64,000 nt of DNA from Phycisphaerae bacterium. Its GTDB lineage: Bacteria; Planctomycetota; Phycisphaerae; Sedimentisphaerales; Anaerobacaceae. The DNA lies in assembly GCA_012744475.1 (NCBI GenBank), contig JAAYBV010000065.1:110187-174186 (forward strand). The letters run 5' to 3'. The position numbers and the translations under genes are program-made. Every line of letters begins with the position of its first letter. Positions within the stretch are counted from its first letter, which is position 1. This document shows positions 37,287 to 59,803 of the stretch, piece by piece. A model generated the notes under the pieces. The model was not told the DNA's origin, did not search any database, and saw only the letters and a program-made list of their open reading frames with translations.

Positions 37287-38072
37287 ATGAAACGGATTTC
37301 TATTCTCGTCACCGTCGTGGCGTTGGCGCCGGCGGTCGGCCGGGCAAGCGGCTGGAGTTCGCAGCGCCATCAGATCATCTACAGTCCCTATGCCTTCAGC
37401 TACAACAATCCCGGCCTGATTCCCGGCAGCATCAAGTACTCGCCGTATGCGTTCAACGCGAACAGCGCCGGCCTGGTCTACGAAGGCGCGCGCTATACGC
37501 CGTACGCCTTCAATTACCGCAGCCCCGGTCTGGTCGTCGACTATTACTGGTGGCAGCTACCGTGCTGCCCTCCGTGCCGCGTCGTCGAGGCATGCCCGGC
37601 CCCTCAGAGGAGCGTGTCGGCCAGCCGCACGAGACACCGCGCGGCGGCCTCACGAGGACCGTCGGCGTGGACCAGAAGACTGCATGAGATTCGGCAGACG
37701 GACGCTGAACATATTGTACGCCGATACCTCCAAGCTGATGGATTGGACGATTTCCGTGTCGACCGCCGTCTGAGCATCGAGAACCGAACTGCCGGTGCCG
37801 CGTTCATCTTCCACGACAAGAACCTCGTCGTGAGATACACCAACCCCGAGATCATGGAAGCTCTCCAAGCTGAAGGTGGGAGCCGGATGAAGGTGGTCGA
37901 GCGGTACGAAGAGGCTTGGGCAACGTTTGCCAGGGACATCGAGGCACGCGGCGGAACCATCTACTGTGTCAGCGCCTCGGAGCCGGACCAGATCGTCGCG
38001 GCATTGGCCGCGTGCGACGCGCTGCGCCCCACAGGTCTTTCCGATCAGATCACGATGGTCGCTAGAGAGTAA
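37287..38072 (+). CDS. Exported protein with three 19-residue YSPYAF repeats
   Basis: 261 residues, no recognised family. A signal peptide (ILVTVVALAPAVGRAS) leads to three adjacent repeats of exactly 19 residues at about 32-50, 51-69 and 70-88, each starting Y(S/T)PYAF and carrying (N/S)(P/A)GL at repeat positions 10-13. A Trp/Cys segment (YYWWQLPCCPPCRVVEACPAP) and a basic linker follow, then a compact domain of about 140 residues (RQTDAEHIVRRYLQADGLDDFRVDRRL, and FHDKNLVVRYTNPEIMEALQ) ending at residue 261. The first ATG has AGGAGG at ideal spacing. It lies between the CAZyme set and the giant LTD genes and may belong to the same surface programme; that is inference. Confidence 0.6.
   Translation: MKRISILVTVVALAPAVGRASGWSSQRHQIIYSPYAFSYNNPGLIPGSIKYSPYAFNANSAGLVYEGARYTPYAFNYRSPGLVVDYYWWQLPCCPPCRVVEACPAPQRSVSASRTRHRAAASRGPSAWTRRLHEIRQTDAEHIVRRYLQADGLDDFRVDRRLSIENRTAGAAFIFHDKNLVVRYTNPEIMEALQAEGGSRMKVVERYEEAWATFARDIEARGGTIYCVSASEPDQIVAALAACDALRPTGLSDQITMVARE
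37380..37550 (+). repeat. Three 57-base coding repeats
   Basis: Encode the YSPYAF/YSPYAF/YTPYAF units. Period is 57 bases with no spacer; identity between units is moderate at DNA level but the first six residues of each are nearly invariant. Confidence 0.75.
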
Positions 38073-38104
38073 TCCTCACCCGGAGTGTGAGAGATCTCTC
38101 GAAA

Positions 38105-41100
38105 TCACGGTGTGCCGGGCGTGGGTGGTGATGGATACCAGTTCTCCGAGCGGTTCCAGGCCACCGCCGGGATGGTCACGTCTTCGACCGCCAGGGACCG
38201 ACCGTTTCCATCCGTGGTCGGGTACCAGTCGTCCTCATAGCGGAAACGCATGATGGCCGCCTCCAGCGGCGCTGCCAGATTCAGTACGATGTCTTCTCCA
38301 CCATCGCTGAGGCGCCCGGTGTATTCCCCCGCTACGGATAGCTCCATGCCGTAGCTGTCGCGAAAGGCCGCGAGGTCGTCGACGACCACGGTACACTGTC
38401 CCGCGTCGAGCATCATCGAGCCGAAGGTGAACTGAACCCCGTCTGTGAAACGCAGACCCGTCAGATCCAACGGCTCGGCGCCGATGTTGCATAGCTCAAT
38501 ATAGTCCAGTCGGTCCCCGGCCGGCGAATGGTACATCAACTCGGTGACACGGAGGAAATCGAGCAATCGAAGCTCCTCCAGATAGGGGTACTCGCTGTCG
38601 CCTCCTTCCACGACGGTCGCCTCCATCGCGACGGAGAAGATCAGGTCGCTACTCGTCGCCGGCGTGTTCAGTCCATGAATCGCCAGGAGGTTCTCTCCCG
38701 CGCGGAGACGGTCGGCGTATTCCGAAATGTCGAAGACGGCGTCGAACGTCCGGCCATAGGACTCATGGTCAGCCTCCGCCTCCGAGTCCCACTGCGGCAT
38801 CCCCGTGATATTGGCGCGAGCCACTTCCGCGCCGTTGAGATAGGCAACGAAACCATCGTCGAATCGAACGCTCAGCATCAGTTCGTTGAAATGACCGACG
38901 AGGCCTGTCGCCATCGTGAACGGAATACGGATGTAGCAAGTCGTGTTCTGCCCGTACATCTGATCCTCGATGTCCAGACTGATCCAGTCCTCATACCCTG
39001 TGCTTCGCTCGTAGCCGATTCCGCCGGGACCGCCGGACGACCGGAGCCAGGCCGAATCATCGAACGCCGGATCGGATTTCCATGTCTCGCTCACCTCGCC
39101 CGCCGAGGCAGGAATGATGACCCTCTTGTCCGCCTCTTCGGGCACGAGCACGATCCTTGTCGCGACGAGTTCCCGCCGCACAGGATTCGACATCCCCGGC
39201 GTGGGCAGCTCAAGCCAACCCAGCCGATCCGATCCATCGGGCGCCCGTCCCTGTGACACGTCGGGCGTCTGGGGGCCGAACAGGACCTTGTCGACTTCCT
39301 TCAGATCGCGGTCGAACAATCCGATCATCTCCCCATCCGGCGAAAGCTTGAAACCGACATGGCCAAGCGACTCCTCTCCATCGGCAGCAAAGACGGCGAA
39401 ACCCCGGCCCTCGACGAAGCTCAAGGCGGCGATTCGGTATTTGTCCGGCCGTACCATTGGACGGTCTGTGAGGTAGAACCCACCGACATCGACAGGACCA
39501 TCGCCCGGATTGTACAACTCGATGAAATCACGATCAGAGAGCACCTCGGCTTCCGCCAGCCATTCGTTGATCCGGACAGCCGATGGATCGCCGAGCGGCT
39601 GGGCCAGGTTGGCGAAACCGAACGTGGGAATCGCCAGACGCCATTCGCCGTCGGGTCCCGTCCGCCCGATTGCCAGATTTGGCAACTGTGGTCCGAACTC
39701 CACCGAATCGATCAGGCTCCCATCGCGGTCGTACAGACTGAGTTGCCCTCCTTTCCTGTCGAGGGCAAAGCCAAGATGTACGCCTGATGTCGTGACATCG
39801 GCATCAGCAAGCAGAACGAGGTAATCGCCCGGATTCATCGCGACGCCGGCGGGGAAGATGAACCTGTCCGGCTGCCGGGTGTCGTCACTGAGGCTCATGC
39901 CCGACAGATTGACCACTGATGGCCCATCGTAATACAGCTCGACCAGAGCAGGGCAGGTTCCTTCGTGCTCGAAGGTCTCATTGCCGGCAAGAATCTCGTT
40001 GAGCACGAGCCGCCGGTATGTGGTGTCCACAGTCCAGGTCCGTGACGCATTGGGCTGATCCTGCCAGGCGCCGGCGGAGTTCCTGCCTCGAACGTAGACC
40101 GTGTACGACTGCCCGTTCTTCAGGCCGGTCAGCAAGATCGGGATATCCACGGAACGCTCCTCGCTCCAAGGACCGTTCGGCTCGTTGACACTGTACACGT
40201 AATGGGTGATTCCCGGTCCGCCGACGGTCAGCATCACCTGCGTCCGATACGTCCAGCCCTCGGGCTCGCCGGCGACGGAGGCCCCCGCCGGAACGAACGC
40301 GCCCATATCCAGTCCGAGCATTCCCGCCCCGCGCGCTGCCGACCACGGCTTCAGATGGAAATCGCCATCGCCTGCGAACAGCGGATCGGCATCGATGTTG
40401 CCCTCGCCCAGCGCGTGCCAATCGCTCGGCAACAGGCATCGGTCGACCGCAATATCCGTCGTGCCCCACTCCGCATCGTTCACACGAAGGTCGCCCAGCA
40501 GCGTGGGACACTGCCGGAAGATGCATGAATCGATACGCACGCCCCGACCGGGGGAGGTCGTCTGGCCCGGGATCTCGAAGTGGAAGACGGCCGCGTTGGC
40601 GTCGACCACAGTGTTGTTCTCGAACCACATGAAGGCCCGGTCCTTGATTTGCGCGACGTGTTCGACCTGGCGAAAGACATTTCGCACGACGACATAGTCC
40701 CGGCCTGCACCGGCCGAAATCACGTTCGACTCGCGCGGCGTCCTGTTGAAGCGATCCTCGATGTAGTCCATGAATACGTTGCCCTCGATGTGGGCGTCGG
40801 TCTCCAGATCGAGCGCCTCGTCGCCCCCGCCGAGGAAGACATTGTTGAGGATCTGCGGGATCGCATCGGGTCGTGTCGCGCCGTCGAAATCAACAGCGTC
40901 GTTGTGGCCGGGTGTACGCCCGAAGACGTTGCCGTCGAGAATGAATCGGCCCGCCGCAGGAACACCGCGGCCCCAGATGTGCTCGCTGAGGTTGTCCGTC
41001 GATGGAGGCTCTCCCGGCGCGAACATGTCGGTGAATACGCAGTTCCGCACGACCAGCGATGAGTCTATGGTGCGAATCCGCCGGAGATCCGTGTGATCGA

Positions 41101-44100
41101 ACGTGACGTGATCGAGCAGGAGACTGGAGTTCTCCAGGCCCACCATGCCATCGATTGTCCGACCATACTCGATCACAGCGTGACAAATCCGGTTGTCGTG
41201 TGGGGAATCAAGGAATTGCAGGCCGCCCCAGGTTCCGCCCAGTTCCGGCGTGCGGGTGAAACGGATGGTCTCGTACGCCGTTCCCTCCGCCACGAGCCGG
41301 CCTTCGACGATCAACCGCACGTTCGGGTCGAAGAACACCGTCGTCCCCGCCCCGACCGTCAAGGTGACATCAGGCGGGATGGTCAGGTCGGCGGTGATTC
41401 GGTAGGGTCCTTCGTCGGCCGTCCAGAACAGATCCCCGCCCGTCAACGGGCTCGAGGGGAACGTCGGCGTGCTCTGATAGTAACCTAAGTCCGGCAACGG
41501 GTCGCCGGGCGATGCGGCTCCGATACAGGGTGACGTTGCCATGAGACGGTAGTTGCCCCTCTGCGGATCGACGAACAGCGCGTCGGCGCTCAGATTGCCC
41601 TCGCCCGGCCAGGTCTCTCCCGTCAGACAGCAATAGCTGATGTGAACATCGGACGGCTGGTAGGGCGCCTGCACATCCACCGGTACGGTCGCATCGATAA
41701 TCGAATTGGTCACGTTGTAGACGATGGTCCCTGACGTGACGCCCGTCTTGTTGTGCGACTGGAGTCCCACGTCGACGTGACCAGGCACTTTCGACGTCAC
41801 GATGGTGGCATGATCGATGTCAACGACGGCATCGGAACCGTCGTACGCCTTGGCGGCGACGCTGGCCACGGTTGGATCCTCAGGGGCGGTGTTGTTTGCC
41901 ACGATCAGACAGCGATCGATCTCCGTCCGGCCGCCGTAGATGCTCACGCCCTTGTCCCGGCAGTCACGAATGATGGAATCCTCGATGCGAATCTCGGACC
42001 CGAGCGTATCGACGCCGTCGTCGTCCATCCGGGCAATGACGCTGCGACGGATCACACACTGCTGGCCGGCGAGCTGATCGTGGATGTAGATCCCGTCGGC
42101 ATCGTCGGCGGCGTGCATATCCGTGATCCAGCCGTCCTCGAACCGCAGTGCGGTGCCCGCGATCTCAGGTCCCATCACCGACCGGGCCAACAGGCACTGC
42201 CGGAACGTCAGGTCCGTACCGGCGCCGGCATCCATGATCTTGCCCGCGTGGTCGGTCAGACAGACGTGATCGAAGAGCAGTGTCGAGTTGGCCACCCGAA
42301 CGGCCGGGCCCGAATGGGAGTGCCCTACCGGCGGCGAGTGACCCGCCCGCGTGATGTGAGTGTAGCGAAATGTCGAAAGAGCCGCGTCGACGAAGTGCAA
42401 TTCGCCCCAGTTCTGACCGGCCCCGAGGCACGTGAACGTCACCGGGGAGGCTGCCGTGCCAAGCGACTGGATCGCACCCTGCACGTCGATATCAGTCCCG
42501 CCGCTGCCGGAGGGAACGCCCTCGATCAGGACGAGCGTGCCGGGATCGAGCGTCAGCGTGACACCCGTGGGAATTGTGAAGTCGCCACCGGTCACGTAAC
42601 ATACTCCGCTCCAGGTCTCGGATTCGCGCAGGATACCCGACACGATCTTCACGGGCTGATCGCTGACGTCGGCCAGCGTGGCACTCTGCTCGACCCCATT
42701 CACACGCACGGTCAGTGTGAAATCGCCTTGGCCCGTGAAAGTGACCAGGACGCTGCCCAAGCCGTTGCACAGCGTGCAGTGGCCGGAACTGGGGCGAATC
42801 GCCGGATTGCCGGAGACCGAAAACGTCGCGGTCGAGTCCCATGCATCTCGATCGATCGTGCCATCTGCCGCAAGCAATTCGACGCGAATCAGAACGGGAA
42901 CGCCGGGAAGATAGCTGTCTCGAACGATCAGATTGACGCCAGATGAAGCGCCCGACGAAGGATCGCCGCCGATGGCGGATTCTTTCGGATAGTTGTTCGT
43001 TAAACCGGTCGGATAGTAAACGTCCACATATCCGCCGCCCAGCGGACGGCCCGTCCCTTCGGGCCCGTCGAAGGTCTCGACGATCATGCGATTGATGCCG
43101 GGCGACAGGTCCAACAGAGTTCTGCCCAAGGCCCACTGGCCCTCGCGCGGTGACCATTGAACCGGCCGGCCATCGACGAGCACCGACCGCGTCCGCGTGG
43201 CGTCGGCCGTACCGCGAACCTCCATACCGTGTACATACGGAACGGACGCGATGGGATAGCCGGCAAGATTCGGCAGGTCGCTGCCGGCGGTGAACTCCAC
43301 GGGAATCTGCGAGAGCACATATCTGCGTCTGGCCGCAACGAAGGTCTCGATCGCCTCGATAGTCGTCTGCGGAACCCAGTCGCCCAGGGTGTTTTCCACA
43401 AACGGATTGAACCGCTCGGGCGAAAAGACCGTCTCCGCAAGGTCCGTCAACTGGGCGTAGTAGCGCCCCACAAACACAGGATGTGTGAGAAAGCGCCTGA
43501 TGACCGGCAGACTGTTGAGCCTTCCGGCCAGCCAGATCGACGTATTCGGGTCGGGCGAATTCAAAATGGTGTCCAGATCGTAAGGCAACAGCAGGAACCG
43601 GGGATCTTCGATGCCGCGGTACATGCAGTAATCGTCGCCGTAGCCGTTGCCCAGGTTCGTTTCCCGGTTGGTCAAGAACGTCTCCATCGCGAACCACCGC
43701 ATCCATTGCTCGGTATTGACGACCTTCTCGACCTCCCGCACGTACATCTCGTCCGGCGACCGATCCAGCGCATAGGTCAACGCGATCAGGTCGGACCAGT
43801 CGTTGACCGCGGCATTCGACTTCTTGACGTACCAGTCTTCCTGACCGTACGTCTGCGGTTCGCTGCCATGATAGCGAAGGTCGCAGTGTCTGCTTCGACT
43901 GACACAACTATAGACATTGCCCTGGTTGTCGTCCGGGAAATGGTTGTCCGCCCAGTCGCTGTCGTAGACCTCCAGGTGCACGTACGATCCATACATCCGT
44001 CCGGGGTCGATCGGTGCCAGGTCCTGGCCGTTCACCCTCACCTGAACGCGCGTGACATCTGGGGCCGGCATATCGGCCATGCGGTAGAGCGCATGTCCGA

Positions 44101-45430
44101 GCCATTGATTGTAGGTGTATTTGCTGTTGATATTGATCGCCGAGACGCCTTTCCACGGCCGGTCGCCGGGGAAGCTCACGTGGTAGTTGTTCGGAGGCGG
44201 CGTTCGAGAGCCGTTGCCCCGGTTCCGGATGCCGACGTTGTGGCGAAGGAGAATGTCCCTGCCGTCGATGCTGATGAACGTCCCGTTCATCTGGGCGCGA
44301 GAAAAGGCCTCGTCGCTCCGCGTCCCAAGGTAGGCGAGTCGGCCTCGCTCCATCTCGGTCATCACCATGTAGTAGAGCGGCTGGCTTCCGATCTGCCAGT
44401 AGCTGTAGGGATTGAACGCCGCGTCCACACGATACAACGCGTTTGTCACCTGTTCGGGCCGGCCGTCCACAATGCTTGGAGCCGGCCACGTGCGCATCTG
44501 CCCACCATTGTCGATCGCCTCGACGTAGAACTCCACTACGGCGCCGTCGGGCTGCGGCGGAATCTCGACGCCGTACACGCGGTCGCCCGCAGCGCCGTCG
44601 GCGTGGGCGCCGTCGTCGAACATCGGAAGAACGGCATACTCGTTGGCATCGAGTGTCGGGTAGTTGCCTCGGTCGACAAACTCGGAGCGGTCGACACGAT
44701 ATCGCAGATTCACCGTCGGGCCGAATGGAGATTCGTCAACCGCCGTCGCCGTAACGGTCACAGGATCGACCGGTCCCGGGATCACGGGACGGTGCTGCAC
44801 TTCTGCAACCAGAGGCGCCACGTCAGCGGAAGCGATGGAGTTGGCGCGACCCGGCGTGCCGCCGACGTCCAGACTGGCGGCCCAGTTCGCGCCGTACTCG
44901 TTGGGCCCAGCCGCATTGATCAGTTCCAACGACTTGCCGCCGCCGTCGTGATCGTTGCGCCATTGCCAGCCACGATGGCCCCGGTCGACCGGGCCCAGCT
45001 CACGGACGCCCCAGTCTCCGCTGTCCGCATACGAGACCTCGTCGACTAGACCGCCTGAGGCGTCGCGCAATTCGATTGTCTCGCCGGAATTGCTCAGCCG
45101 TCCCTCCCAGCCGCCCATGATACAGGCGACATCCGGATGTCGGACGGCGAAGGCATCCGCGTCGGCGACGACCACCAGGTAGTCGCCGCCGGCCAGGGTC
45201 ACATCTCCAAATGTCAGGGAAACGGCTCGCGCCAACTGCCAGCCCGCGAGGTTGACGGCCTCGTTGCCCCGGTTGAACAACTCGATGTACTCGGCGGCAA
45301 GGTCCTCGGCCTGCAAGACCTCGGAGTAGGGATTGTACATGATCTCGTTGATCACGAGCGCCGCTCGACCAACCGTGCCGATGGCCGTCGTGCAAACCGC
45401 AAACGCCAGGAATAGGACCACCCGTTTCAT
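38105..45430 (-). CDS. Giant secreted LTD/CotH-kinase/beta-helix protein A
   Basis: 2441 residues with a signal peptide (VVLFLAFAVCTTAIGTVGRA). Order: lamin-tail (LTD) domain about 24-190 (VINEIMYNPYS, ends GGTPGRAN); linker with beta-sandwich; CotH-kinase region about 340-730, including IRNRGNGSRTPPPNNYHVSF and LLPYDLDTIL near 615, the metal-binding Asp end; a long right-handed beta-helix about 945-1770 with paired segments such as CVFTDMF and VFGRTPG; a fibronectin-like piece; LTD 2 (about 1805) and LTD 3 (about 1960); a galactose-binding-like sandwich (about 2093-2285, YGQNTTCYIRIPF); LTD 4 to the end, PTPGTP. CotH proteins are atypical kinases. A paralogue lies 51 bases upstream. No sorting signal is visible at the C-terminus. 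Confidence 0.85.
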   Translation of the reverse strand: MKRVVLFLAFAVCTTAIGTVGRAALVINEIMYNPYSEVLQAEDLAAEYIELFNRGNEAVNLAGWQLARAVSLTFGDVTLAGGDYLVVVADADAFAVRHPDVACIMGGWEGRLSNSGETIELRDASGGLVDEVSYADSGDWGVRELGPVDRGHRGWQWRNDHDGGGKSLELINAAGPNEYGANWAASLDVGGTPGRANSIASADVAPLVAEVQHRPVIPGPVDPVTVTATAVDESPFGPTVNLRYRVDRSEFVDRGNYPTLDANEYAVLPMFDDGAHADGAAGDRVYGVEIPPQPDGAVVEFYVEAIDNGGQMRTWPAPSIVDGRPEQVTNALYRVDAAFNPYSYWQIGSQPLYYMVMTEMERGRLAYLGTRSDEAFSRAQMNGTFISIDGRDILLRHNVGIRNRGNGSRTPPPNNYHVSFPGDRPWKGVSAININSKYTYNQWLGHALYRMADMPAPDVTRVQVRVNGQDLAPIDPGRMYGSYVHLEVYDSDWADNHFPDDNQGNVYSCVSRSRHCDLRYHGSEPQTYGQEDWYVKKSNAAVNDWSDLIALTYALDRSPDEMYVREVEKVVNTEQWMRWFAMETFLTNRETNLGNGYGDDYCMYRGIEDPRFLLLPYDLDTILNSPDPNTSIWLAGRLNSLPVIRRFLTHPVFVGRYYAQLTDLAETVFSPERFNPFVENTLGDWVPQTTIEAIETFVAARRRYVLSQIPVEFTAGSDLPNLAGYPIASVPYVHGMEVRGTADATRTRSVLVDGRPVQWSPREGQWALGRTLLDLSPGINRMIVETFDGPEGTGRPLGGGYVDVYYPTGLTNNYPKESAIGGDPSSGASSGVNLIVRDSYLPGVPVLIRVELLAADGTIDRDAWDSTATFSVSGNPAIRPSSGHCTLCNGLGSVLVTFTGQGDFTLTVRVNGVEQSATLADVSDQPVKIVSGILRESETWSGVCYVTGGDFTIPTGVTLTLDPGTLVLIEGVPSGSGGTDIDVQGAIQSLGTAASPVTFTCLGAGQNWGELHFVDAALSTFRYTHITRAGHSPPVGHSHSGPAVRVANSTLLFDHVCLTDHAGKIMDAGAGTDLTFRQCLLARSVMGPEIAGTALRFEDGWITDMHAADDADGIYIHDQLAGQQCVIRRSVIARMDDDGVDTLGSEIRIEDSIIRDCRDKGVSIYGGRTEIDRCLIVANNTAPEDPTVASVAAKAYDGSDAVVDIDHATIVTSKVPGHVDVGLQSHNKTGVTSGTIVYNVTNSIIDATVPVDVQAPYQPSDVHISYCCLTGETWPGEGNLSADALFVDPQRGNYRLMATSPCIGAASPGDPLPDLGYYQSTPTFPSSPLTGGDLFWTADEGPYRITADLTIPPDVTLTVGAGTTVFFDPNVRLIVEGRLVAEGTAYETIRFTRTPELGGTWGGLQFLDSPHDNRICHAVIEYGRTIDGMVGLENSSLLLDHVTFDHTDLRRIRTIDSSLVVRNCVFTDMFAPGEPPSTDNLSEHIWGRGVPAAGRFILDGNVFGRTPGHNDAVDFDGATRPDAIPQILNNVFLGGGDEALDLETDAHIEGNVFMDYIEDRFNRTPRESNVISAGAGRDYVVVRNVFRQVEHVAQIKDRAFMWFENNTVVDANAAVFHFEIPGQTTSPGRGVRIDSCIFRQCPTLLGDLRVNDAEWGTTDIAVDRCLLPSDWHALGEGNIDADPLFAGDGDFHLKPWSAARGAGMLGLDMGAFVPAGASVAGEPEGWTYRTQVMLTVGGPGITHYVYSVNEPNGPWSEERSVDIPILLTGLKNGQSYTVYVRGRNSAGAWQDQPNASRTWTVDTTYRRLVLNEILAGNETFEHEGTCPALVELYYDGPSVVNLSGMSLSDDTRQPDRFIFPAGVAMNPGDYLVLLADADVTTSGVHLGFALDRKGGQLSLYDRDGSLIDSVEFGPQLPNLAIGRTGPDGEWRLAIPTFGFANLAQPLGDPSAVRINEWLAEAEVLSDRDFIELYNPGDGPVDVGGFYLTDRPMVRPDKYRIAALSFVEGRGFAVFAADGEESLGHVGFKLSPDGEMIGLFDRDLKEVDKVLFGPQTPDVSQGRAPDGSDRLGWLELPTPGMSNPVRRELVATRIVLVPEEADKRVIIPASAGEVSETWKSDPAFDDSAWLRSSGGPGGIGYERSTGYEDWISLDIEDQMYGQNTTCYIRIPFTMATGLVGHFNELMLSVRFDDGFVAYLNGAEVARANITGMPQWDSEAEADHESYGRTFDAVFDISEYADRLRAGENLLAIHGLNTPATSSDLIFSVAMEATVVEGGDSEYPYLEELRLLDFLRVTELMYHSPAGDRLDYIELCNIGAEPLDLTGLRFTDGVQFTFGSMMLDAGQCTVVVDDLAAFRDSYGMELSVAGEYTGRLSDGGEDIVLNLAAPLEAAIMRFRYEDDWYPTTDGNGRSLAVEDVTIPAVAWNRSENWYPSPPTPGTP

Positions 45431-45481
45431 ACCGGTTGCTCTGTCCGCATGAGAAATCGATGCATATGCATGCCGCTTCCC

Positions 45482-48400
45482 CTAAAACTGGCCCGGCGTC
45501 GGCGCCGACATGCGCCAATTCGCAGGATCGTTCCAGGCCGCCACCAGCGCCACAGGATCGTGGGCCGTCAGCGACATCCCATCTCCGTCGGTGGCCGGAT
45601 GCCACTCATCATCATACCGGAAACGCGCGATCGCCGCATCGAAGGGTTCGGCCAGCTTCAGGACGATATCCTCGCCCTTGTCGCTAAGGCGACCGGAATA
45701 CTGACCGGCCACGTGGGCATCTGTTCCATATCTCGACCGAAATGCGGCGGGATCGTCGACGACGACGGTGCACTGCCCCGGTGCCAGTTCCATCGCAGGG
45801 AAGGTGAATTCGATGCCGTCTGCAAAACGTATACCGCTCAGGTCCAGAGGCACATCGCCGACGTTTGCCAGCTCGATGTAGTCCAGGCTGTCACCTTCGG
45901 CCGCGTGGTACATCAGCTCCGTGACACGAAGACCATCGAGCAACTGGAGCTCTCTCTGGTACGGATACGCCGCTCCCGCATACTCAACCGCGGTTCCACT
46001 CAGCTCCGTAGAGACCAGAAAATCGCTGCTGGTCGTCGATACGTTCAGGCCCTGAATGGCCAGGAGATTAACACCTTCGCGAAGCAGGCCGATATCCTCG
46101 GAGACATCGATCGTGGCGTCGAACCGCTCGGCATCGGCTTCGTTGTTGCCGGTGGCGACGGAGTTCCACTGAGGCGCTCCCGAGATGTTGGCCCGGGCGA
46201 TTTCCATGCCGTTGAGCCAGGCGACGAAGCCATCGTCATAGCGAACGCTCAGCGTCAGTCCGCCGAGGCTCCCGATCAATCCGGCGGTACCCGTAAAGGG
46301 AATCCGCACGTAGCACGTCGTGTTCCGGCCGTACATCTGGCTGCGGACGTCCAGACTGATCAGGTCCTCATAGCCGCTGCCGTCTTCATAGCCAACGCCC
46401 CCAGGCCCTCCCGAGGCGCTCAGCCAGGCCGAGTCGTCGAACGACGCATCCGAGCGCCAGCTCTCATCCACCTGATCGGCCGAGGTGGGAACCATGGCCC
46501 TCTTGGGTGCATCTTCGGGCACGAGCACAACCGATGCCACCGTCGGCTGTTCGATCACCGGGTTGGCCAGGCCGGGTGTAGGCAGATCGAACCAGTCGAT
46601 CCGATCTGCCCCATCGGGAGCGCGTCCCTGCGAGACATCCGCCACCTGAGGACCGTAGAACACCTTGTCCACCTCACGCAGGTTGGGGTCAAACAAGCCG
46701 ATCATCTCGCCATCGGTGGACAACTTGAAGTTTACGTGACCCGGAAGGTCCTCTTCGTCGGCGACGAAGACGCCAAATCCTTCGCCCTCGATGAACGTCA
46801 GCGGTCTCACTCGGAATTCTTCCGGTTGGGTCACGGGATTGTCCGTGAGACAGTAGCCGCCGATATCGACAGGCAACGCTTGAGGATTGTGAAGCTCGAT
46901 GAGATCGCTCTCGAACAGGACCTCGCCCCGCGCGAGCCACTCGTTGATGCGCACGCGATCCGGGTCTCCCACGGGCTGTGCCACATTGGGAGCCCCTAAG
47001 CTCGGAATGGTCAGACGCCAGAGGCTGTCGCGGCCGATGCGCCCGAAGGAAGACCCCCTCAATTGGTGACCGAATTCCACGCAGTCCAGCAGAACACCTT
47101 CACGGTCGTACAGATACAGCTCGCCGCCCTCTCGGTCGAGCGCAAAGCCCAGGTGGATTCCAGAGGTTGCACCGGCATCGGCGAACACCACGAAATGCTC
47201 TCCGGGCCCAATCATCACTCCGCTCGGGAACACGAACTTGTCGGGCTGCTGCGGATCGTCGCTGAGCATGGCCCCGGCCAGGCTCATCTCCGCCGGTCCA
47301 TCGTAGAACAGTTCCACCGCATCGAGGTGCTCAGAAGCGATCTCGCCGGACGCCAGAATCTCATTGATCACAAGACGACGATACGCCGGATCCACGGCCC
47401 AGTTGCGCGAGGCATTCGGCTGCTCCTGCCATCGACCCGCGGAGTTCTTGCCCAGCACGTAGACGGTATACGATTGCCTATCCTGCAAACCGGTCAGCTC
47501 GATCGGCACGTCCACCGGCCGCTCCTCGCTCCAGGGACCGCTCGGGCTGTTGACGCTGTACACGTAATCCGTGATTCCCGGTCCGCCCACCGTCAGGATG
47601 GCGTCCGTTCGATACGTCGTGCCGCTCGGCTCGCCTGTGATCGCCGCACCGCCCGGAACATACGCCCCCATATCCAGGCCGAACGGTCCCGACGCAACGG
47701 CGGCAGACATCGGTTTGAGATAATAATCGTTCGCGCTGACGAACAGAGGGTCCGCATCGATGTTGCCAACACCCAAGCCATGCCAGATTGCCGGAAGGAT
47801 CGAGGCCTCGACCACCAGGTCCGTCGGGCCGTAATCCGGCAGCGACTCGTCAAAGAAATGCTCGAACATCGCGGCATTGTTCCAGAAGATGTTGCCGGCC
47901 ATATAGGCCCCTCGCCCGGCTGGCCGGGGCGGACTGCGATCGGGCTCACCGAAACTGATCGTCGCGACGCCGGTGTTGACGAACGTGTTGTGCTCAGCCC
48001 GCAGGAAACCATCCTCCTTCACCAGCACGGCATGATCGTTATCGACGAAGAGATTCCGCACGAGGCAAAGAGCGGTCGTGTGATCGCTGTCGCGGCCCGT
48101 GGCAATTGCGTTCGAGGTGCTGTCGCCACCCTGATTGCGGTTGAAATGCACGAAGACGTTGCCCTCGATGTGGGCGTCGGCGCCGTCCAGGTCGGGGCCG
48201 TCATCGCCGCCTCCGAGAAAGACGCTGTCGTAGATCTGTACGATTGGGCCGGGACGTTGCCCTCCGGCGAAGTCGATCACATCGTTATAACCTGTGGCCG
48301 TGCCGAAGGTGCAGCGCTCGAAGACGAGTCGTTCATCTCCCGTCAGCCCGACGCCGTGTATCGGTTCGGCTCCACTGATCGACGGAAAGACGCAATCACG

Positions 48401-51307
48401 TGCGAGCACGGTGGGGTGATCGACATTGAGAATTCGCGTGTTCGTGCCCGCCCACGTCACGTTGTCAAGTTCCACGCGCGAATGCTGAACGTCGACAGAC
48501 TCACCCTGACCGTCGCCGGATTCCATATCGACGCAGTACAGTCGGTTATCCTCCAGACTGTCATCGAATCGGATGCCCTCCCAATGGCCCGTGCCGTTCG
48601 GCACGTGGGCCAGACGAACGCGTTGATAAGGCGTTCCTTCGATGTCGAGCCGGCCGCCCTGTCGCACCTCGATTCCCGCGCCCTCCTCGAAGAACAGCGT
48701 CGCGCCCGGTCCTACGGCAAGCGTGGCGCCGGCCTCGACAGTCAGGGTGGTCTGGACGTGCCAGGGGCCCGGTGCGGCATCGAGCAGCGTATCGTTCGTG
48801 ATGGTCCCTCCGATAGCCGTCATGTCGCCGTCGTCGTACCAGATGTCGATGTGTCCGCGTTCGAGTTCCTCGCCGGCGCCGCCCGGACCGTCGAAGGTCT
48901 GCACGATCACACGATTGATCCCCGGATTCAGAGCAACGTCGTCCATCGACCACGTGCCGTCCTTCTGGGACCAGTCGGATTCGTCGACCGGCACGCCGTT
49001 GACGCAGACCGAGCGGACCTTGATCGCGTTGGCCGTACCGGTCAGAGCAGTGGTGTTTCTGGTCGTGTACGGATATTCGCCGACAACGTCCGGACCGAGG
49101 ATGGCGAAACTCTGCGGAATCTGAGGGCTCGTGTCGGCGTCCGGATAGCCACCATCAAGCACACTGTTGACACGATCTCGCACGAACTGCCGGATTCCCC
49201 GGGCGCTGTTGATCTCCGAATCCGGAACCCAATCGGCCAGAAATCGGTCTACCAACGGATCGAAGCTCGCCGGCGCAAAAACGGTCCGGGCCAGATCGCG
49301 GCACTGCCGGTAGTACAGCCTCGTCACCTCGGGATGATTCAGAAGCCGCCGCAGGCCGCTGACCTGCGCGTATACCCAGATGTCCCGCTGCGGCTCATAC
49401 GAATGATCCCCTTGCCCGAGCACCGTATCCATATCGTGAGGCACGAGCCAGAAGCGCGGATCGATCACTCCGCTATAGAGTGCGTAATCGTCACCCGTCC
49501 CGCTGGTCAGGCCGCCCTCGCGATTGCCGATCAAAGCATCGACCGCCAGGAATCGCATCCATTCGTCGAGGTTGACGATCTCGCTCACCTGAGTCAGGAA
49601 GTCCTCATCGGAGAGATTGCGATTGTTGAGCGCCTCAATCAATCGGAACAGATCGTTCCAGTCGTCGGCCGCTTCGTTCGTCTTCTTGGGGTAGTTCAGA
49701 CGGTAATCGTTCGGATCGGGCGTCCGGCCGGCAGCCTCCTTGCGGTTCAGATCGGCGTAGGTCCGTGCGTGAACGCCATCCTCGTAGTAGGTGCAGCGAT
49801 ACAGGTTACCGTTGTCGTCATCGGGGAAGTGGTTCTTCGCCCAGTCTTTGTCGAGGACCTCGACGGCGCTGTAGAAGCCGTAGGTCCGGCTCATGTCGCT
49901 CCGCGCCGGCTCATCCGCATTCACCTTGAGGCGAACAGGTGTAACGTTCGCCGCCGGAATTCCGCTCATCTGGAACAGAATGCTGGCCATCCGTTCGAGA
50001 TGCGGATACTTGCTGTTGAGGTTCAGCGCACGAACGTCTTTCCAGGGACGGTCGCCGGCCAAGTTGACTCGATAGGACATCGGAGGATCGGCACGCTTTC
50101 GATTGCCTCGATTGCGGACACCCGCCTGATAGCGCACGTTCGCCCCCGTTCCATCGACGCTGATAAACGTCGCGTTCATCTGGGCGTCGCTCATCGGTTC
50201 GGCGGCAAAAAGATCGCCGCTATACTGCTCATCGCCGATCTGGTCCAGTTCCGTCCGTTCGCTGTCCGTCATGATCAGATAGTAGACCGGATGCGCGCCG
50301 GGGGTGTGCGAAGTCTGCTGATCGAACGAGTCGTCGACGATGTACAGCGCGTTGGTCGCCTGGCGGAGCGCGCCGTCGACAAGGCTCGGCGCGGGCCAGG
50401 TCCGTGAGTGTCCCGCGCCGTCCGCCGCCTCGATATAGAACTCGACCACGGTGCCGTCGCCCTGCGGCGGAATCTCGGCACGATATAACCGGTCTTTGGG
50501 CATGGCCAATGACGTGAATTCGCCGGCGCCATCGGCGCGGTAGTGCAGCACGGCCTGCATGTCCGCCGATTCCGCCGAGACAAGGCGGGCGCAGATCGTG
50601 ACCGGCTCGCGCGACGTTGGGATAGCCGGGGCGTGCGCGACGTCCAGAATCAGAGGCGCGGTGCGTGTCGAGCGAACCGAATTCGCCCGGCCGGGAGTCC
50701 CTCCTTCCACGGCAGCGGCGCCCCAGTTCTGTCCATATTCGTTGGGCATGTTGGGATCGATCAGCTCCAGCGATCTGCCCTGACCATCGTGGTCGTCGCT
50801 CCACGTCCAACCGCGATGACCGTGGTCCAGCGACCCAAGCTCGCGCTGGGCCCAATCCCCTTCGTCGGCGTATTCGACCCGGTCGATTGAGGTCCCTGCC
50901 GCATCCACTAACTCGATCGCTTCGCCGGAGTTGCTCAGCCACCCGCCCCAGCCTCCTGCCACAAGATCAGTCCCGGGATAACGGCCCCGAAAGGTATCCA
51001 CGTCGGCCGCAACCACCAGGTAAGACTGCGCCTCCAGCACGACGTCGGGAAAGACAAACTCAACTCCGTCGCTCAGACGCCACCCCGCCAGACTGACGGC
51101 CTCAGGTCCTCGGTTGAACAACTCGATCCATTCCCGACTGGTGTCCTCCGCGGTTTCGGGACGGTGGTAAGGGTGGTACATGATCTCAGAAATGATGATG
51201 CTCCGGGCACCGCCGTCTACGGATGGATTGTCCTGCCCACGGACGGCGGCGCATGGCAATGAAGACAGCAGCAGAAACTGCGCGAGGAGACGGACAACGA
51301 CTCGCAT
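45482..51307 (-). CDS. Giant secreted LTD/CotH-kinase/beta-helix protein B
   Basis: About 1941 residues from an ATG with GGAGG upstream, and a signal peptide (VRLLAQFLLLSSLPCAAVRGQ). The order is the same as in the downstream paralogue: LTD 1 (about 35-205, IISEIMYHPYHR), CotH-kinase (about 330-740, with VPHDMDTVLG near 622), a shorter beta-helix (about 905-1280), then LTD 2, LTD 3, a galactose-binding-like sandwich and LTD 4 (from about 1792, ending PTPGQF). The C-terminal 600 residues align closely with the paralogue; the size difference lies mostly in the beta-helix. The frame stays open further upstream, but a strong promoter at 51413-51441 rules out the longest form. An ATG at 51337 is an alternative. 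The two genes look like a tandem duplication in one operon. Confidence 0.83.
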   Translation of the reverse strand: MRVVVRLLAQFLLLSSLPCAAVRGQDNPSVDGGARSIIISEIMYHPYHRPETAEDTSREWIELFNRGPEAVSLAGWRLSDGVEFVFPDVVLEAQSYLVVAADVDTFRGRYPGTDLVAGGWGGWLSNSGEAIELVDAAGTSIDRVEYADEGDWAQRELGSLDHGHRGWTWSDDHDGQGRSLELIDPNMPNEYGQNWGAAAVEGGTPGRANSVRSTRTAPLILDVAHAPAIPTSREPVTICARLVSAESADMQAVLHYRADGAGEFTSLAMPKDRLYRAEIPPQGDGTVVEFYIEAADGAGHSRTWPAPSLVDGALRQATNALYIVDDSFDQQTSHTPGAHPVYYLIMTDSERTELDQIGDEQYSGDLFAAEPMSDAQMNATFISVDGTGANVRYQAGVRNRGNRKRADPPMSYRVNLAGDRPWKDVRALNLNSKYPHLERMASILFQMSGIPAANVTPVRLKVNADEPARSDMSRTYGFYSAVEVLDKDWAKNHFPDDDNGNLYRCTYYEDGVHARTYADLNRKEAAGRTPDPNDYRLNYPKKTNEAADDWNDLFRLIEALNNRNLSDEDFLTQVSEIVNLDEWMRFLAVDALIGNREGGLTSGTGDDYALYSGVIDPRFWLVPHDMDTVLGQGDHSYEPQRDIWVYAQVSGLRRLLNHPEVTRLYYRQCRDLARTVFAPASFDPLVDRFLADWVPDSEINSARGIRQFVRDRVNSVLDGGYPDADTSPQIPQSFAILGPDVVGEYPYTTRNTTALTGTANAIKVRSVCVNGVPVDESDWSQKDGTWSMDDVALNPGINRVIVQTFDGPGGAGEELERGHIDIWYDDGDMTAIGGTITNDTLLDAAPGPWHVQTTLTVEAGATLAVGPGATLFFEEGAGIEVRQGGRLDIEGTPYQRVRLAHVPNGTGHWEGIRFDDSLEDNRLYCVDMESGDGQGESVDVQHSRVELDNVTWAGTNTRILNVDHPTVLARDCVFPSISGAEPIHGVGLTGDERLVFERCTFGTATGYNDVIDFAGGQRPGPIVQIYDSVFLGGGDDGPDLDGADAHIEGNVFVHFNRNQGGDSTSNAIATGRDSDHTTALCLVRNLFVDNDHAVLVKEDGFLRAEHNTFVNTGVATISFGEPDRSPPRPAGRGAYMAGNIFWNNAAMFEHFFDESLPDYGPTDLVVEASILPAIWHGLGVGNIDADPLFVSANDYYLKPMSAAVASGPFGLDMGAYVPGGAAITGEPSGTTYRTDAILTVGGPGITDYVYSVNSPSGPWSEERPVDVPIELTGLQDRQSYTVYVLGKNSAGRWQEQPNASRNWAVDPAYRRLVINEILASGEIASEHLDAVELFYDGPAEMSLAGAMLSDDPQQPDKFVFPSGVMIGPGEHFVVFADAGATSGIHLGFALDREGGELYLYDREGVLLDCVEFGHQLRGSSFGRIGRDSLWRLTIPSLGAPNVAQPVGDPDRVRINEWLARGEVLFESDLIELHNPQALPVDIGGYCLTDNPVTQPEEFRVRPLTFIEGEGFGVFVADEEDLPGHVNFKLSTDGEMIGLFDPNLREVDKVFYGPQVADVSQGRAPDGADRIDWFDLPTPGLANPVIEQPTVASVVLVPEDAPKRAMVPTSADQVDESWRSDASFDDSAWLSASGGPGGVGYEDGSGYEDLISLDVRSQMYGRNTTCYVRIPFTGTAGLIGSLGGLTLSVRYDDGFVAWLNGMEIARANISGAPQWNSVATGNNEADAERFDATIDVSEDIGLLREGVNLLAIQGLNVSTTSSDFLVSTELSGTAVEYAGAAYPYQRELQLLDGLRVTELMYHAAEGDSLDYIELANVGDVPLDLSGIRFADGIEFTFPAMELAPGQCTVVVDDPAAFRSRYGTDAHVAGQYSGRLSDKGEDIVLKLAEPFDAAIARFRYDDEWHPATDGDGMSLTAHDPVALVAAWNDPANWRMSAPTPGQF

Positions 51308-51412
51308 TGTCGGCGGCGTCCTCCGAGACCGCAACATCTTGAAGGCGCCGCCCACCCCGGTCGTTTCCCGAAGAAACCCTCTCCAAAAGGCAAGACAAGC
51401 AGACATACCGCT

Positions 51413-51441
51413 ACTATAGCAGAAACAGGCACTTAAGTCAA
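51413..51441 (-). promoter_or_regulatory. Predicted strong promoter for the giant LTD/CotH pair
   Basis: TTGACT and TATAGT separated by 17 bases on the minus strand, placing the start near 51406 and giving a leader of about 100 bases. It also shows that the pair is transcribed separately from the PQQ gene that ends just before. Confidence 0.65.
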
Positions 51442-51470
51442 TCTGGCCGGCATTTGCCAAGACAGGTGCG

Positions 51471-54326
51471 TCACCCTGCTGCGGCGTCGGCTGCAAGCGT
51501 CTCCCAGGCGATCGGGGCATGGGCTTCGATGCACAGGACCAGCTTGCGGATGTAGAAAAGGTCGGCCTTGCACCAGGGCAGATCGAGAAACCGTGCGAGT
51601 TTCTCGGGCGACTCGCCGAGAACCCAGGCCCGAGCCGCAAAGATCTCATCGGCCATGGTCGGAAAGGCGAAGGCTGATTCGTTGCGCCACATCGATTCGA
51701 CGCCCCAGGCCAAGTACCACGTGGGCCGGTGGTGATCGACGTAGACATCCATCAGATGTCGATGCGTCGGGCCGACACAGGCTGCCAGAAACCGGCCCAC
51801 TTCGGGCGTCAGGTGCCGCCAGCGAGCGAAGATCGACCGCGAGACCGGCACTTGCGAAATCAGCCCGCCGTTCGAGTGGGCCAATTCGTAGGCCAGACGC
51901 TCCCGAAGAGCGGACCGTGTCCGATTCAATCCATCTGCAAGGGCTTTCCGATCGTCCATATGCGCCGCGATCCGGCAGTAGGCAATCAGGCCGGCGAGGT
52001 GTCCGTTGCGGCAGTCCTCTTCCATCTTATTGGCGGGACGATCCGCCAAGCCTCGGAGGTGATTCCAGTTTCTCTCGATGTGCCTCCAATCGCCGCTGAC
52101 GTGGGCCCAGAGCCACAGCGGATACAGCCGGGCCACCTCGTTTCGGACGACGTCATCCAGAACACGGAACAGCTTCTGCGGCGCGATATCGTAGTACGAG
52201 CGGACGGCCCCATCGGCCGGATCGACAGTATCCCTGCCGACGGGTCCATCTAGAGGACCTCCGGCTTCCCTCATGCGATCGACATAGCGGACGATCGCGT
52301 GCTGAAGGTCCTCGCTGACGTGAGGGTAAGCCAGAGCCAGGGTCAACAGCGTCTCTGTCGGATCGGCGAAGATGCGATACGCCTCCCTCGGATGCTTGCC
52401 GGGTGGAAAGACCAGAGGCTGCCACCGCCGGGAGACAAGCTCCCGCACGCTGGCCACAAGCCGCTCCTTCAGGCCCTCCAATCCATCGCGGTCGGCAACG
52501 CCGCGCCTCGGTACCTCCCAGATGAACCGATCCAGTTCGCCGTCGGCAATCCGGCTGACCCGTTCGGCTGCCTGCTCACTCAGCGGCGCTGCACGCGTGC
52601 CTGGGACGGCCTCTGGCAGGGCTTCGAGCACATGACGCAGGCGAGGCATCTGGAGCAGATCCCAGTCCCAAGGCAAGTCCTTGATTCTCTCCCACTCCGA
52701 TTCGGTCAGTCGAGCGGAAGGACTGTCTGACTTCCTGCCGGCATTGCCTTTGGCGTCCATGCGGAATGCGATGACCGCGGCGCCGGCACTGATCTCATGC
52801 GTGGGGATGTAATAGAAGCTATCGCCGGCCACGGACACCGCCGTGTCAATGACCGAGCCCCCTCCGTAGACCGCCGTGCCGCGGGCGAGCCACTCCTTGC
52901 CCAAGGGGAGAGTCTGGCCGCGCAGGAGCATCGCCCAGAGGCCGACCGCCTCGCCCGGCTGCGGCTCGTGCACACCGCGACAGAACGGCTCTTCATAGCC
53001 TTGCAGCGTGTCGAGGTCCATCGCGTTGACGTTGTCCTGGTGCGCGTTGACGAGAACGCGGCCCGCAACAGAAAGCTGACATTGCTCGTCGTGAACCAAC
53101 AGAAGGCTGTCGTGCCAGCCATACGTGCGCGATTGATCCATGATCGGGGTGATGTGCCCGGTCTCCGTGTCGAGATAGCCCACGTTCAAGAAAGGCGAAT
53201 AATGCTCGTAGCGACTTCGTAGCAATGCCTGGAACTTGACCACGACTTTGCCGTCGGGCGCGACCAGCGGTGGCGCGCCGGTGCCATTCATGCTCTCGGC
53301 GTAGACGATGGGCGTGACGAACTTGTGCCGGCCCGTGTCGGGGTCCAGAACGAAGAACGTCTGATAGGCGGGTTCGGATGTCAGACGCTTGCGGATGTGG
53401 TCCAACTGCGCTTCGTAGCTGCCGGGCTCGGCCATCCTCCTGAAGTTGGCCTCGCGCAGTCGCTCGTTCTCCTCCTTGTTGTGCCTCCAGCTTGCGAAGT
53501 CGCCGAACACGTTTCTGACCATATCCACCAGAACAGGCTCGAACGAATCCAGGGACAGGGTCGGCGTCACGGTCACCATCACGGAGCCGTCGGGCGCGAC
53601 CACCGGGTGGTATCCACGAAAGCTCACGCCGGGCAATTTCGGGCTTCGCCACCGCTGTATTCCGTCGGACAGATCGAAGGCGTAGACGTGCATATCTTCG
53701 CTGGCGATGTAGGCGCGGTTTTGTTTCGCATCGAGCGCGGGACTCGACAGAAGCGGACCGGCGGTTGCCGCCTTCCATCGTACATCTCCCCTCTCAACAT
53801 CGATGGCGTAGAGACTCCCATCGCGGCTGCCGATGAGAACCAGATTGTCCCAGATCAACGGGGCATTCCAGACCGCGGCGTCCGTCCGGATGGACCAGGT
53901 GAGCGTGCCTCTATTGGCATCAAGTCCGTAGACTCTGCCGTCCGCACAGCCGAAGACGACCGCGCTGCCGCCGGCGGCGCAGGTGTGCAGAATGGCTTGA
54001 GGGGCAGTGTACGTCCACACGTCCCGGCCCGTCCGGGCGTCCATCGCATGCAGAACGCCCTTCATCGTGCCGACGAACACCTTGCCTGCGGAGACAATCG
54101 GCTGCACGCCGGACATCAGACCTTCGTCGGGAAACAGGCGATACCACTTTCGCGCGAAAGGCGGACGAATCTCGGTGACCGTGCTTCCCGACCGCGCCGG
54201 ATCGTGTGCCAGCATGGGCCAGTCGCCCGATGCCGACACCGTCCCGGCAAGCATCGCCAACAGAAGACCGGCGCCGCCCACGATGACTCGAAGTCGAGCG
54301 ACCAAGTTGCCTGTAGGAATCGCCAT
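51471..54326 (-). CDS. Secreted PQQ-type beta-propeller with all-helical C-terminal half
   Basis: 951 residues with signal peptide (VIVGGAGLLLAMLAGTVSAS). Residues about 35-500 form PQQ-like propeller blades with AxD/W motifs: GKVFVGTMKGVLHAMDARTGRDVW, AVVFGCADGRVYGLDANRGTLTW, LVLIGSRDGSLYAIDVERGDVRW, RAYIASEDMHVYAFDLSDGIQRW. The C-terminal about 400 residues are Trp- and Arg-rich helices (LYPLWLWAHVSGDWRHIERNWNHL, PTWYLAWGVESMWRNESAF, AARAWVLGES) resembling an (alpha/alpha) toroid. That could be a glycan-binding or lyase-like domain; no catalytic set was recognised. The ATG at 54326 has GAGG upstream. DUF1080 gene precedes it by 47 bases. Confidence 0.75.
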   Translation of the reverse strand: MAIPTGNLVARLRVIVGGAGLLLAMLAGTVSASGDWPMLAHDPARSGSTVTEIRPPFARKWYRLFPDEGLMSGVQPIVSAGKVFVGTMKGVLHAMDARTGRDVWTYTAPQAILHTCAAGGSAVVFGCADGRVYGLDANRGTLTWSIRTDAAVWNAPLIWDNLVLIGSRDGSLYAIDVERGDVRWKAATAGPLLSSPALDAKQNRAYIASEDMHVYAFDLSDGIQRWRSPKLPGVSFRGYHPVVAPDGSVMVTVTPTLSLDSFEPVLVDMVRNVFGDFASWRHNKEENERLREANFRRMAEPGSYEAQLDHIRKRLTSEPAYQTFFVLDPDTGRHKFVTPIVYAESMNGTGAPPLVAPDGKVVVKFQALLRSRYEHYSPFLNVGYLDTETGHITPIMDQSRTYGWHDSLLLVHDEQCQLSVAGRVLVNAHQDNVNAMDLDTLQGYEEPFCRGVHEPQPGEAVGLWAMLLRGQTLPLGKEWLARGTAVYGGGSVIDTAVSVAGDSFYYIPTHEISAGAAVIAFRMDAKGNAGRKSDSPSARLTESEWERIKDLPWDWDLLQMPRLRHVLEALPEAVPGTRAAPLSEQAAERVSRIADGELDRFIWEVPRRGVADRDGLEGLKERLVASVRELVSRRWQPLVFPPGKHPREAYRIFADPTETLLTLALAYPHVSEDLQHAIVRYVDRMREAGGPLDGPVGRDTVDPADGAVRSYYDIAPQKLFRVLDDVVRNEVARLYPLWLWAHVSGDWRHIERNWNHLRGLADRPANKMEEDCRNGHLAGLIAYCRIAAHMDDRKALADGLNRTRSALRERLAYELAHSNGGLISQVPVSRSIFARWRHLTPEVGRFLAACVGPTHRHLMDVYVDHHRPTWYLAWGVESMWRNESAFAFPTMADEIFAARAWVLGESPEKLARFLDLPWCKADLFYIRKLVLCIEAHAPIAWETLAADAAAG

Positions 54327-54373
54327 GCCGTCCACCTCGAACGCAAGTCCCGGCCGAGAAGGGCATTCGTGAG

Positions 54374-55183
54374 CTACTCGATCAGATAGGGCTGCTCGGG
54401 CAACTCACGCACCCATATGTTGCGGAAGCTGATCGGGTTGCCGTGATCCTGAAGGCCGATCGGCCCGTCGCCATGCGGAGTGTATTTGGCTTTGACCTTG
54501 TGCGACGTCGTGCCTTCAATCTCGAGATTGTTGTGCACGCAGACGCCGTTGTGGAATACGGTGATGCGGGCCTTGCGCACCACGTTGCCCTTTTCGTCGA
54601 ACAGCGGACGGAGGAACGCGATGTCGTAGTTCTGCCACTGGCCGGGTGCCCGGCAGGCGTTGACCATCGGCGGATGCGAGCCATAGATCGCCCCCGCCTG
54701 GCCATCGGCGTAGGTCTTGTTCGTCGCGTAATCGTCGTCGGTGTACGAGTCGAGCACCTGCACCTCGTAGCGGCCCATGAAGAACACGCCGCTGTTGCTG
54801 CGGTTCTGGTCGGTTACCCGAGCCGGCACCCCTTCGGGTGTCTTCCACTCGATGTGCAACTGGCAACTGCCGAACGATCTCTTCGTCTGAATGCTGCCGC
54901 CCTTCCGCGTGACGGTCATGGCATCCCCCACGATCTCCCAGGTCGCAGGACTGCCGTTGCCCTTCTGCCACTGGGAAAGATCGGCGCCGTCGAACAGGAT
55001 GATGGCGTCAGATGGAGGCTGTCCGAATTGCGCCGCCGGTGTCACGACAGGAGGTCTCGGGCGGTTCCTGTCGTGAACGGCGTATCTGGTAACCTCCGCA
55101 ACCGCATAGGCTCCCGCCGCAACGGTCAGCGTCGCGGCTAACAGACCCATCCATGGTTTCTTGACGGCGGATGTGCTTTTCAT
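54374..55183 (-). CDS. DUF1080 (3-keto-disaccharide hydrolase-like) protein
   Basis: 269 residues. A membrane anchor or signal near the N-terminus (MGLLAATLTVAAGAYAVAEV) precedes a concanavalin-like beta-sandwich: IILFDGADLSQWQKGNG, QLHIEWKTPEGVP, SNSGVFFMGRYEVQVLDSY, and GPIGLQDHGNPISFRNIWVREL. These are the DUF1080 hallmarks (DG..L..W, EV Q LDSY, LQ.HG..V.FRNI). The family includes 3-keto-glycoside hydrolases in Planctomycetota and Bacteroidota. The ATG has GAGGAG six bases upstream. Close spacing to the PQQ gene suggests they are transcribed together. Confidence 0.88.
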   Translation of the reverse strand: MKSTSAVKKPWMGLLAATLTVAAGAYAVAEVTRYAVHDRNRPRPPVVTPAAQFGQPPSDAIILFDGADLSQWQKGNGSPATWEIVGDAMTVTRKGGSIQTKRSFGSCQLHIEWKTPEGVPARVTDQNRSNSGVFFMGRYEVQVLDSYTDDDYATNKTYADGQAGAIYGSHPPMVNACRAPGQWQNYDIAFLRPLFDEKGNVVRKARITVFHNGVCVHNNLEIEGTTSHKVKAKYTPHGDGPIGLQDHGNPISFRNIWVRELPEQPYLIE

Positions 55184-56807: not shown

Positions 56808-56817
56808 CGCCTCGGAG

Positions 56818-58873: not shown

Positions 58874-58875
58874 GA

Positions 58876-59715: not shown

Positions 59716-59730
59716 TCGTCAAACCCCTTC

Positions 59731-59802
59731 AAGAGAAGTTTCAAGTTTCAAGTACCGAGTTTGAAGTCCCACTTCATACTTCAAACTTCGCACTCCAAAC
59801 TC
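59731..59802. repeat. AAGTTTC tandem and inverted repeat
   Basis: A 7-base unit AAGTTTC repeated about 2.6 times at 59736-59753, followed by AGTTTGAAGT (59758-59767) and its perfect inverted copy ACTTCAAACT (59778-59787), and then another CAAACTC copy (59796-59802). The whole block sits between hydB and hydG. Confidence 0.7.
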
Positions 59803-59803
59803 C

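Follow-up and report, generated by a model that had tools for sequence, protein, structure and literature searches.

Two adjacent giant genes within a 64,000-nucleotide stretch of DNA from a Phycisphaerae bacterium (hereafter the window) encode proteins, P1 and P2, whose CotH domains belong to a conserved clade in which, judging from alignments, the catalytic Asp of the family is exchanged for Glu and the metal-binding Asn for Asp. Since the catalytic set is changed in the whole clade, the name "CotH kinase" is right for the fold and unproven for the activity, and kinase annotation of CotH-family proteins that rests on profile alone is unsafe for this branch, whose catalytic residues differ from those of the family and are strictly conserved. 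The reading to which we lean, with some reserve, sees P1 and P2 as extracellular multi-domain proteins with a retuned CotH fold, acting probably in a polysaccharide setting and by other than ordinary kinase chemistry. Exported via Sec, both would hold the CotH-fold domain between binding modules—LTD (lamin-tail), Fn3/Ig, beta-helix, and GH2-type jelly roll—and this domain would keep its fold and one metal Asp, ordinary CotH protein phosphorylation being most likely lost. The pocket might then catalyze a modified reaction dependent on a nucleotide or a metal, or act as a conserved pseudo-kinase binding module; an active pocket would mean new chemistry of an extracellular kinase fold and an inactive one a conserved extracellular group of pseudo-kinases. 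We know of no biochemistry for any member of the clade.

Genes, domain order, and predicted folds

Both genes occupy the minus strand with a gap of 51 bp, and the two adjacent reading frames described in the earlier note were found at full length. The frame of P2 stays open upstream to 51748; the ATG at 51307, with which a typical signal peptide starts, lies past the stop codon (51471) of the gene before it. By reading of the sequence both N-termini are ordinary signal peptides, and P1 and P2 are probably Sec-exported and sited outside the cell; a surface anchor was found in neither. NCBIfam gave a match to a choice-of-anchor X domain in P1 and no match at all in P2. Features of the pair are as follows (all minus strand).

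38105..45430, minus: P1, 2441 aa, LTD-Fn3-CotH-(insert)-helix-LTD-LTD-jelly roll-LTD (ORF; Pfam: four LTD, CotH, Beta_helix)
38342..38554, minus: P1 LTD4 (LTD profile match)
38612..39166, minus: P1 jelly roll, approximate (alignment to P2)
39284..39583, minus: P1 LTD3 (LTD profile match)
39695..40021, minus: P1 LTD2 (LTD profile match)
40151..41434, minus: P1 second helix-like region, limits approximate (homology to P2 from residue 839 on)
41425..42943, minus: P1-only insert, about residues 830-1335, with the Beta_helix match (Pfam; P1/P2 alignment)
43391..44230, minus: P1 CotH (Pfam CotH match)
43577..43663, minus: P1 altered catalytic segment, E590..D599-D600..D618 (alignments)
45026..45364, minus: P1 LTD1 (LTD profile match)
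45482..51307, minus: P2, 1941 aa, paralogue of P1 (ORF; Pfam: four LTD, CotH; AlphaFold models of residues 32-828 and 1290-1941)
45650..45931, minus: P2 LTD4 (LTD profile match)
45986..46543, minus: P2 GH2-N-terminal-like jelly roll (model residues 300-485; beta-glucuronidases, Z 12.0)
46652..46960, minus: P2 LTD3 (LTD profile match)
47072..47386, minus: P2 LTD2 (LTD profile match)
47528..48796, minus: P2 counterpart of the P1 helix region, limits approximate (homology to P1 1333-1760; no Pfam match of its own)
49241..50119, minus: P2 CotH, Pfam extent, the fold match reaching further (PF08757; 5jd9 profile; 5jda fold match)
49433..49519, minus: P2 altered catalytic segment, E597..D606-D607..D625 (alignments to 5jd9 and paralogues)
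50324..50671, minus: P2 Fn3/Ig-like domain between LTD and CotH (AlphaFold model residues 182-297; Fn3 and Ig-like matches, Z ~10-12)
50867..51205, minus: P2 LTD1 (Pfam PF00932; lamin A/C 1ifr, Z 10.3 over 98 residues)

Pfam recognized four LTD stretches in each protein (PF00932; 166 and 170 bits, far over cut-offs), one CotH domain in each (PF08757; 97.3 and 105.4 bits versus a gathering threshold of 23.8), and Beta_helix (PF13229) in P1 with 28.9 bits at a cut-off of 25.9, with no match in P2. The order LTD, CotH, helix, LTD, LTD, sandwich, LTD proposed previously holds, the helix of P2 being assigned by homology to P1 only; the Fn3/Ig-like domain between LTD1 and CotH (P2 ~213-328) had been overlooked, making that list incomplete. 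The difference in size had been ascribed mainly to the beta-helix: an extra helix-like region is indeed present, but as part of one single insert (P1 ~830-1335).

The AlphaFold model of P2 residues 32-828 (mean pLDDT 84) resembles over model residues 306-701 the B. cereus CotH with Mg/AMP (5jda; Z 28.5, 334 residues, 2.7 Å), the best non-CotH rows of the fold search having Z ~12.6, and a CotH alignment profile run against PDB retrieved 5jd9 (E 7.5e-15). Phmmer searches of PDB with single sequences, namely the CotH region of P2 and that of one paralogue, gave no match; PDB matches to CotH were obtained with alignment profiles and with another paralogue. The model of residues 1290-1941 (pLDDT 85.5) shows a jelly roll between LTD3 and LTD4, best matched by the N-terminal domains of GH2 beta-glucuronidases (Z 12, 137 residues, 2.9 Å), in a stretch having neither Pfam nor NCBIfam match. 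Foldseek results agree with the fold search for both models, and the CotH fold, the lamin-tail folds (1ifr for LTD1 of P2), and the galactose-binding-like sandwich called earlier from sequence are all recovered, the latter as a jelly roll of GH2-N-terminal type. The best PDB profile match of the C-terminal part, to an enterotoxin B chain (E 0.0064), is weak, misses the jelly roll, and was judged to be a chance one. For part of the C-terminal model (window 45485-47440) a resemblance to BT_1938, a DUF4876 protein of solved structure, was also seen (4q1z; Z 11.3, 149 residues).

A conserved branch with a changed catalytic set

Residues of CotH matching D166, N171, and D184 of PKA are kept according to a review (PMC12189002), and B. 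subtilis CotH carrying D228Q has no catalytic activity (PMC7821199); the residue roles used here were taken from these secondary sources, i.e., the review and the later mutant study. The catalytic position (equivalent of PKA D166 and B. subtilis D228) is occupied by Glu 590 in P1 and Glu 597 in P2, the metal-Asn position (PKA N171) by Asp 600 and Asp 607, and the second metal Asp (PKA D184) is kept as D618 and D625, being invariant in the clade. Glu and Asp at the first two positions were found in 28 of 28 clade sequences and in 30 of 30 when two more distant members are included. In the CotH tree, computed without active-site columns and sampled outside the phylum by B. cereus only, the window clade (n=30, support 99) is uniformly E/D/D in the order of positions given above, while its sister group (n=11) comprises eight E/D/D, two D/D/D, and one T/D/D sequences; CotH domains outside both retain the catalytic Asp without exception (28/28: 21 D/N/D, 5 D/D/D, and 2 D/S/D). 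The tree requires at least three D/E changes. Loci of the sister group with intermediate pockets—D/D/D, E/D/D, and T/D/D (L105, L107, L109, and L110-L115)—provide material for tracing the change. Structure prediction, proposed in the earlier note as a check of the kinase assignment, returns the CotH fold; by alignment the second metal Asp is retained, with Glu in place of the catalytic Asp and Asp in place of the metal Asn.

Among 13 other CotH domains of the same genome the only invariant columns are two Asp, whose counterparts stand at a distance of 23 residues in 5jd9 (NFD...PWD); this spacing fits D228 and what we take to be D251 of B. subtilis CotH. The Lys conserved in 12 of these 13 canonical paralogues is replaced by Pro here. 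At a mean pairwise identity of 49%, 11 of the 32 invariant columns of the clade fall within the 29 residues E597-D625 (hypergeometric p 7e-6), and because they cluster there the pocket is under selection rather than decaying; the E/D/D swap, as read from these columns, is a fixed and selected change.

An active extracellular CotH protein kinase, in which Glu would take over from the catalytic Asp and Asp from the Asn, with surface proteins as substrates, is in our estimate rather unlikely. It would agree with retention of the fold and one metal Asp, with replacements that are acidic and strictly conserved, and with the occurrence of Asp at the Asn place, the catalytic Asp being intact, in five CotH domains from beyond clade and sister group. 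Glu is sometimes able to stand in for a catalytic Asp, and the repeated D/E changes on the tree would fit a tolerated conservative swap, counting against altered chemistry. Opposed to this are the invariance of the catalytic Asp throughout the CotH beyond clade and sister group, the substitution of Pro for the common Lys, and the loss of activity of B. subtilis CotH upon replacement with Gln (PMC7821199). The "atypical kinase" of the earlier description therefore stands as a fold and is weakened as an enzyme, two of the three PKA-matching residues being replaced clade-wide. The same two replacements favor a dead pseudo-kinase retained in a surface scaffold only for structure or for nucleotide binding, that is, one branch of our preferred reading taken alone. 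A further pointer in this direction is the position directly preceding the metal Asp, which nearly all clade members fill with His or Tyr: by the 5jd9 alignment and a one-residue numbering offset it probably corresponds to Trp245 of the adenine sandwich in B. cereus CotH (PMC12189002). Within the domain, conservation is densest at the pocket, more so than a mere scaffold needs. We consider this explanation unlikely when standing by itself. The clade lends itself to a clear test: the fold is common, the residue swap is fixed, and D/D/D and E/D/D intermediates are available in related planctomycetes.

The combination of an atypical kinase with four lamin-tail domains and a glycan-type helix had been regarded as striking, yet chains with LTD and CotH are the rule in this genome (5.7 Mb; closest named relatives: metagenome-assembled Sedimentisphaerales/Phycisphaerae, Planctomycetota), where profile searches gave 25 CotH and 63 LTD matches, mostly in the same frames, and where some 20 further CotH proteins nearly all carry LTD. 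CotH is present in 82 of 294 genomes sampled from the phylum. An "LTD, LTD, Fn3, CotH" protein, Cthe_0239, has been published from the cellulosome of Clostridium thermocellum (PMC6083626), and a giant protein of a planctomycete has also been described as containing LTD (PMC5177795); in the accessible literature no paper combining "CotH kinase" and "Planctomycetes" was found. The domain combination is thus already known, size and extra modules making a variant of it. Like P1 and P2, Cthe_0239 is an exported chain that unites LTD, Fn3, and CotH in a polysaccharide-degrading setting (PMC6083626), but it has 117 kDa against ~200-260 kDa and is listed without helix, jelly roll, and C-terminal LTDs. 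The LTD-CotH paralogues of the genome, some also with C-terminal jelly roll and LTD, are smaller than P1 and P2, and those aligned retain the catalytic Asp. Compared with the Bacillus spore-coat kinase (5jd9/5jda), the CotH fold and second metal Asp are common, whereas P1 and P2 have Glu for the catalytic Asp, Asp for the metal Asn, and Pro for Lys, and their domain sits in a 2000-residue exported chain with no spore context. The jelly-roll fold is common to the N-terminal sugar-binding domain of GH2 beta-glucuronidases and beta-galactosidases (Z 12), but the GH2 catalytic domain is missing and the jelly roll lacks a Pfam match; the Ig-like LTD fold of P2 is that of the eukaryotic lamin tail, but P1 and P2 are exported bacterial chains with no coiled-coil rod and no cytoskeletal role implied.

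History of the pair and its genomic surroundings

P1 and P2 align with 44% identity in the N-part and 53% in the C-part, bearing out the common origin claimed for them; unrelated origin is ruled out by this alignment and by the CotH tree. CotH domains of P1 and P2 types form separate subclades, each with members from other genera, and the split between them, to judge from the tree, is old. The phylogeny suggested in the earlier note gave conflicting trees for the N-part and the C-part. In L092 the N-parts of the tandem copies (54.5% identity) belong to opposite main clades, and the C-parts show 86.6% protein and 90.5% DNA identity; in L088 an N-part of P2 type is combined with a C-part grouping with that of L086. 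From the tree conflict and these two patterns the C-terminal part appears to have been exchanged or converted between copies, with two CotH types maintained. The P1-only insert (830-1335), seen in L052, L056, L088, L091, and L092 and missing from the P1 orthologue of G002, is found with either N-type. Between the tandem giants at L092:1411-16211 the DNA identity of 90.5% extends through 3.1 kb of the C-terminal part, against 68% in the N-terminal one, a sign of recent gene conversion. A more far-reaching proposal, which we hold to be rather unlikely, is that the clade might represent a distinct CotH/Fam20-like enzyme branch with a Glu/Asp/Asp pocket and a reaction distinct from protein Ser/Thr phosphorylation, e.g., extracellular glycan modification, carried on a giant surface protein whose C-half is homogenized among tandem copies, the two old CotH types staying separate.

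To the left of the pair and convergent with it lie x37287, without family, and GH95, and further left heparinase II/III-like and glucuronyl-esterase-like genes; on the right, a PQQ propeller is followed by a 3-keto-disaccharide hydrolase and a hydrogenase cluster. Varying subsets of this order recur around clade members (L052, L053, L055/L098, L084, L096, and L099). Because GH95, heparinase-II/III-like, glucuronyl-esterase-like, and 3-keto-disaccharide-hydrolase genes are recurring neighbors and the jelly roll is of GH2 type, breakdown or capture of polysaccharides would be the likely setting of P1 and P2. Part of the region is accessory:

51471..54335, minus: PQQ-type beta-propeller protein (Pfam PQQ_2), missing, as are P1 and P2, from three genomes of the genus
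38068..54373, no strand: accessory block of 16.3 kb comprising P1, P2, and the PQQ gene, missing in G001, G004, and G005

In these three genomes of the same genus (94-97% complete) no clade member and no PQQ gene was found, the absence being likely rather than certain in draft assemblies. Homology of the left flank stops at 38015-38067 and that of the right flank starts at 54374-54376, on other contigs; since both flanks are kept without the block, 38068-54373 is accessory. In G002 the pair is located between x37287 and the hydrolase, the PQQ gene being absent there, and in G004 x37287 is joined to an inverted segment at the block site. As the block-free arrangement varies between species, loss with rearrangement seems likelier than clean insertion. 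GH95, heparinase, esterase, and 3-keto-disaccharide hydrolase are retained without the pair in G001, G004, and G005, which counts against a glycan partnership and makes the association of the pair with its neighbors a loose one. Obligate partnership with GH95 or x37287 is ruled out, both persisting without the pair; in G016 and G057 a clade member is present and a GH95 match was not found.

Absence of the 16-kb block from three congeneric species and swapping of halves between copies would also suit a neutral expansion of giant genes, in which shuffled domains without specific function are readily gained and lost. Against it, frames of ~2000 codons stay open, the pocket is invariant in families of 37-85% pairwise identity, and the tandem pair persists in the window, G002, G003, and L092; we regard such expansion as very improbable.

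The window contains GspD, E, F, and an L-like gene, and a secreted-surface programme uniting them with the pair had been suggested, which found no support beyond co-residence. In G002 a distance of 1.1 Mb separates the secretin orthologue from the pair, and in G029 one of 20 kb. G005 lacks the pair but retains, in collinear order, the segment of the window that begins at 12.1 kb and contains the secretin gene; genomic linkage of Gsp and the pair was rejected on the arrangements in G002 and G005.

Two further observations concern the flanks. The gene x37287 (window 37287-38072, plus strand; 261 aa), convergent with P1 and conserved beside GH95 in the genus, encodes an exported-looking protein with three "YSPYAF..PGL"-type repeats and without Pfam match. 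Beside the accessory block, a NiFe-hydrogenase-type cluster (window 56346-60838) is strongly conserved, consisting of a large subunit, a small subunit-like protein, a flavin/NAD reductase, an Fe-S protein, and a maturation protease.
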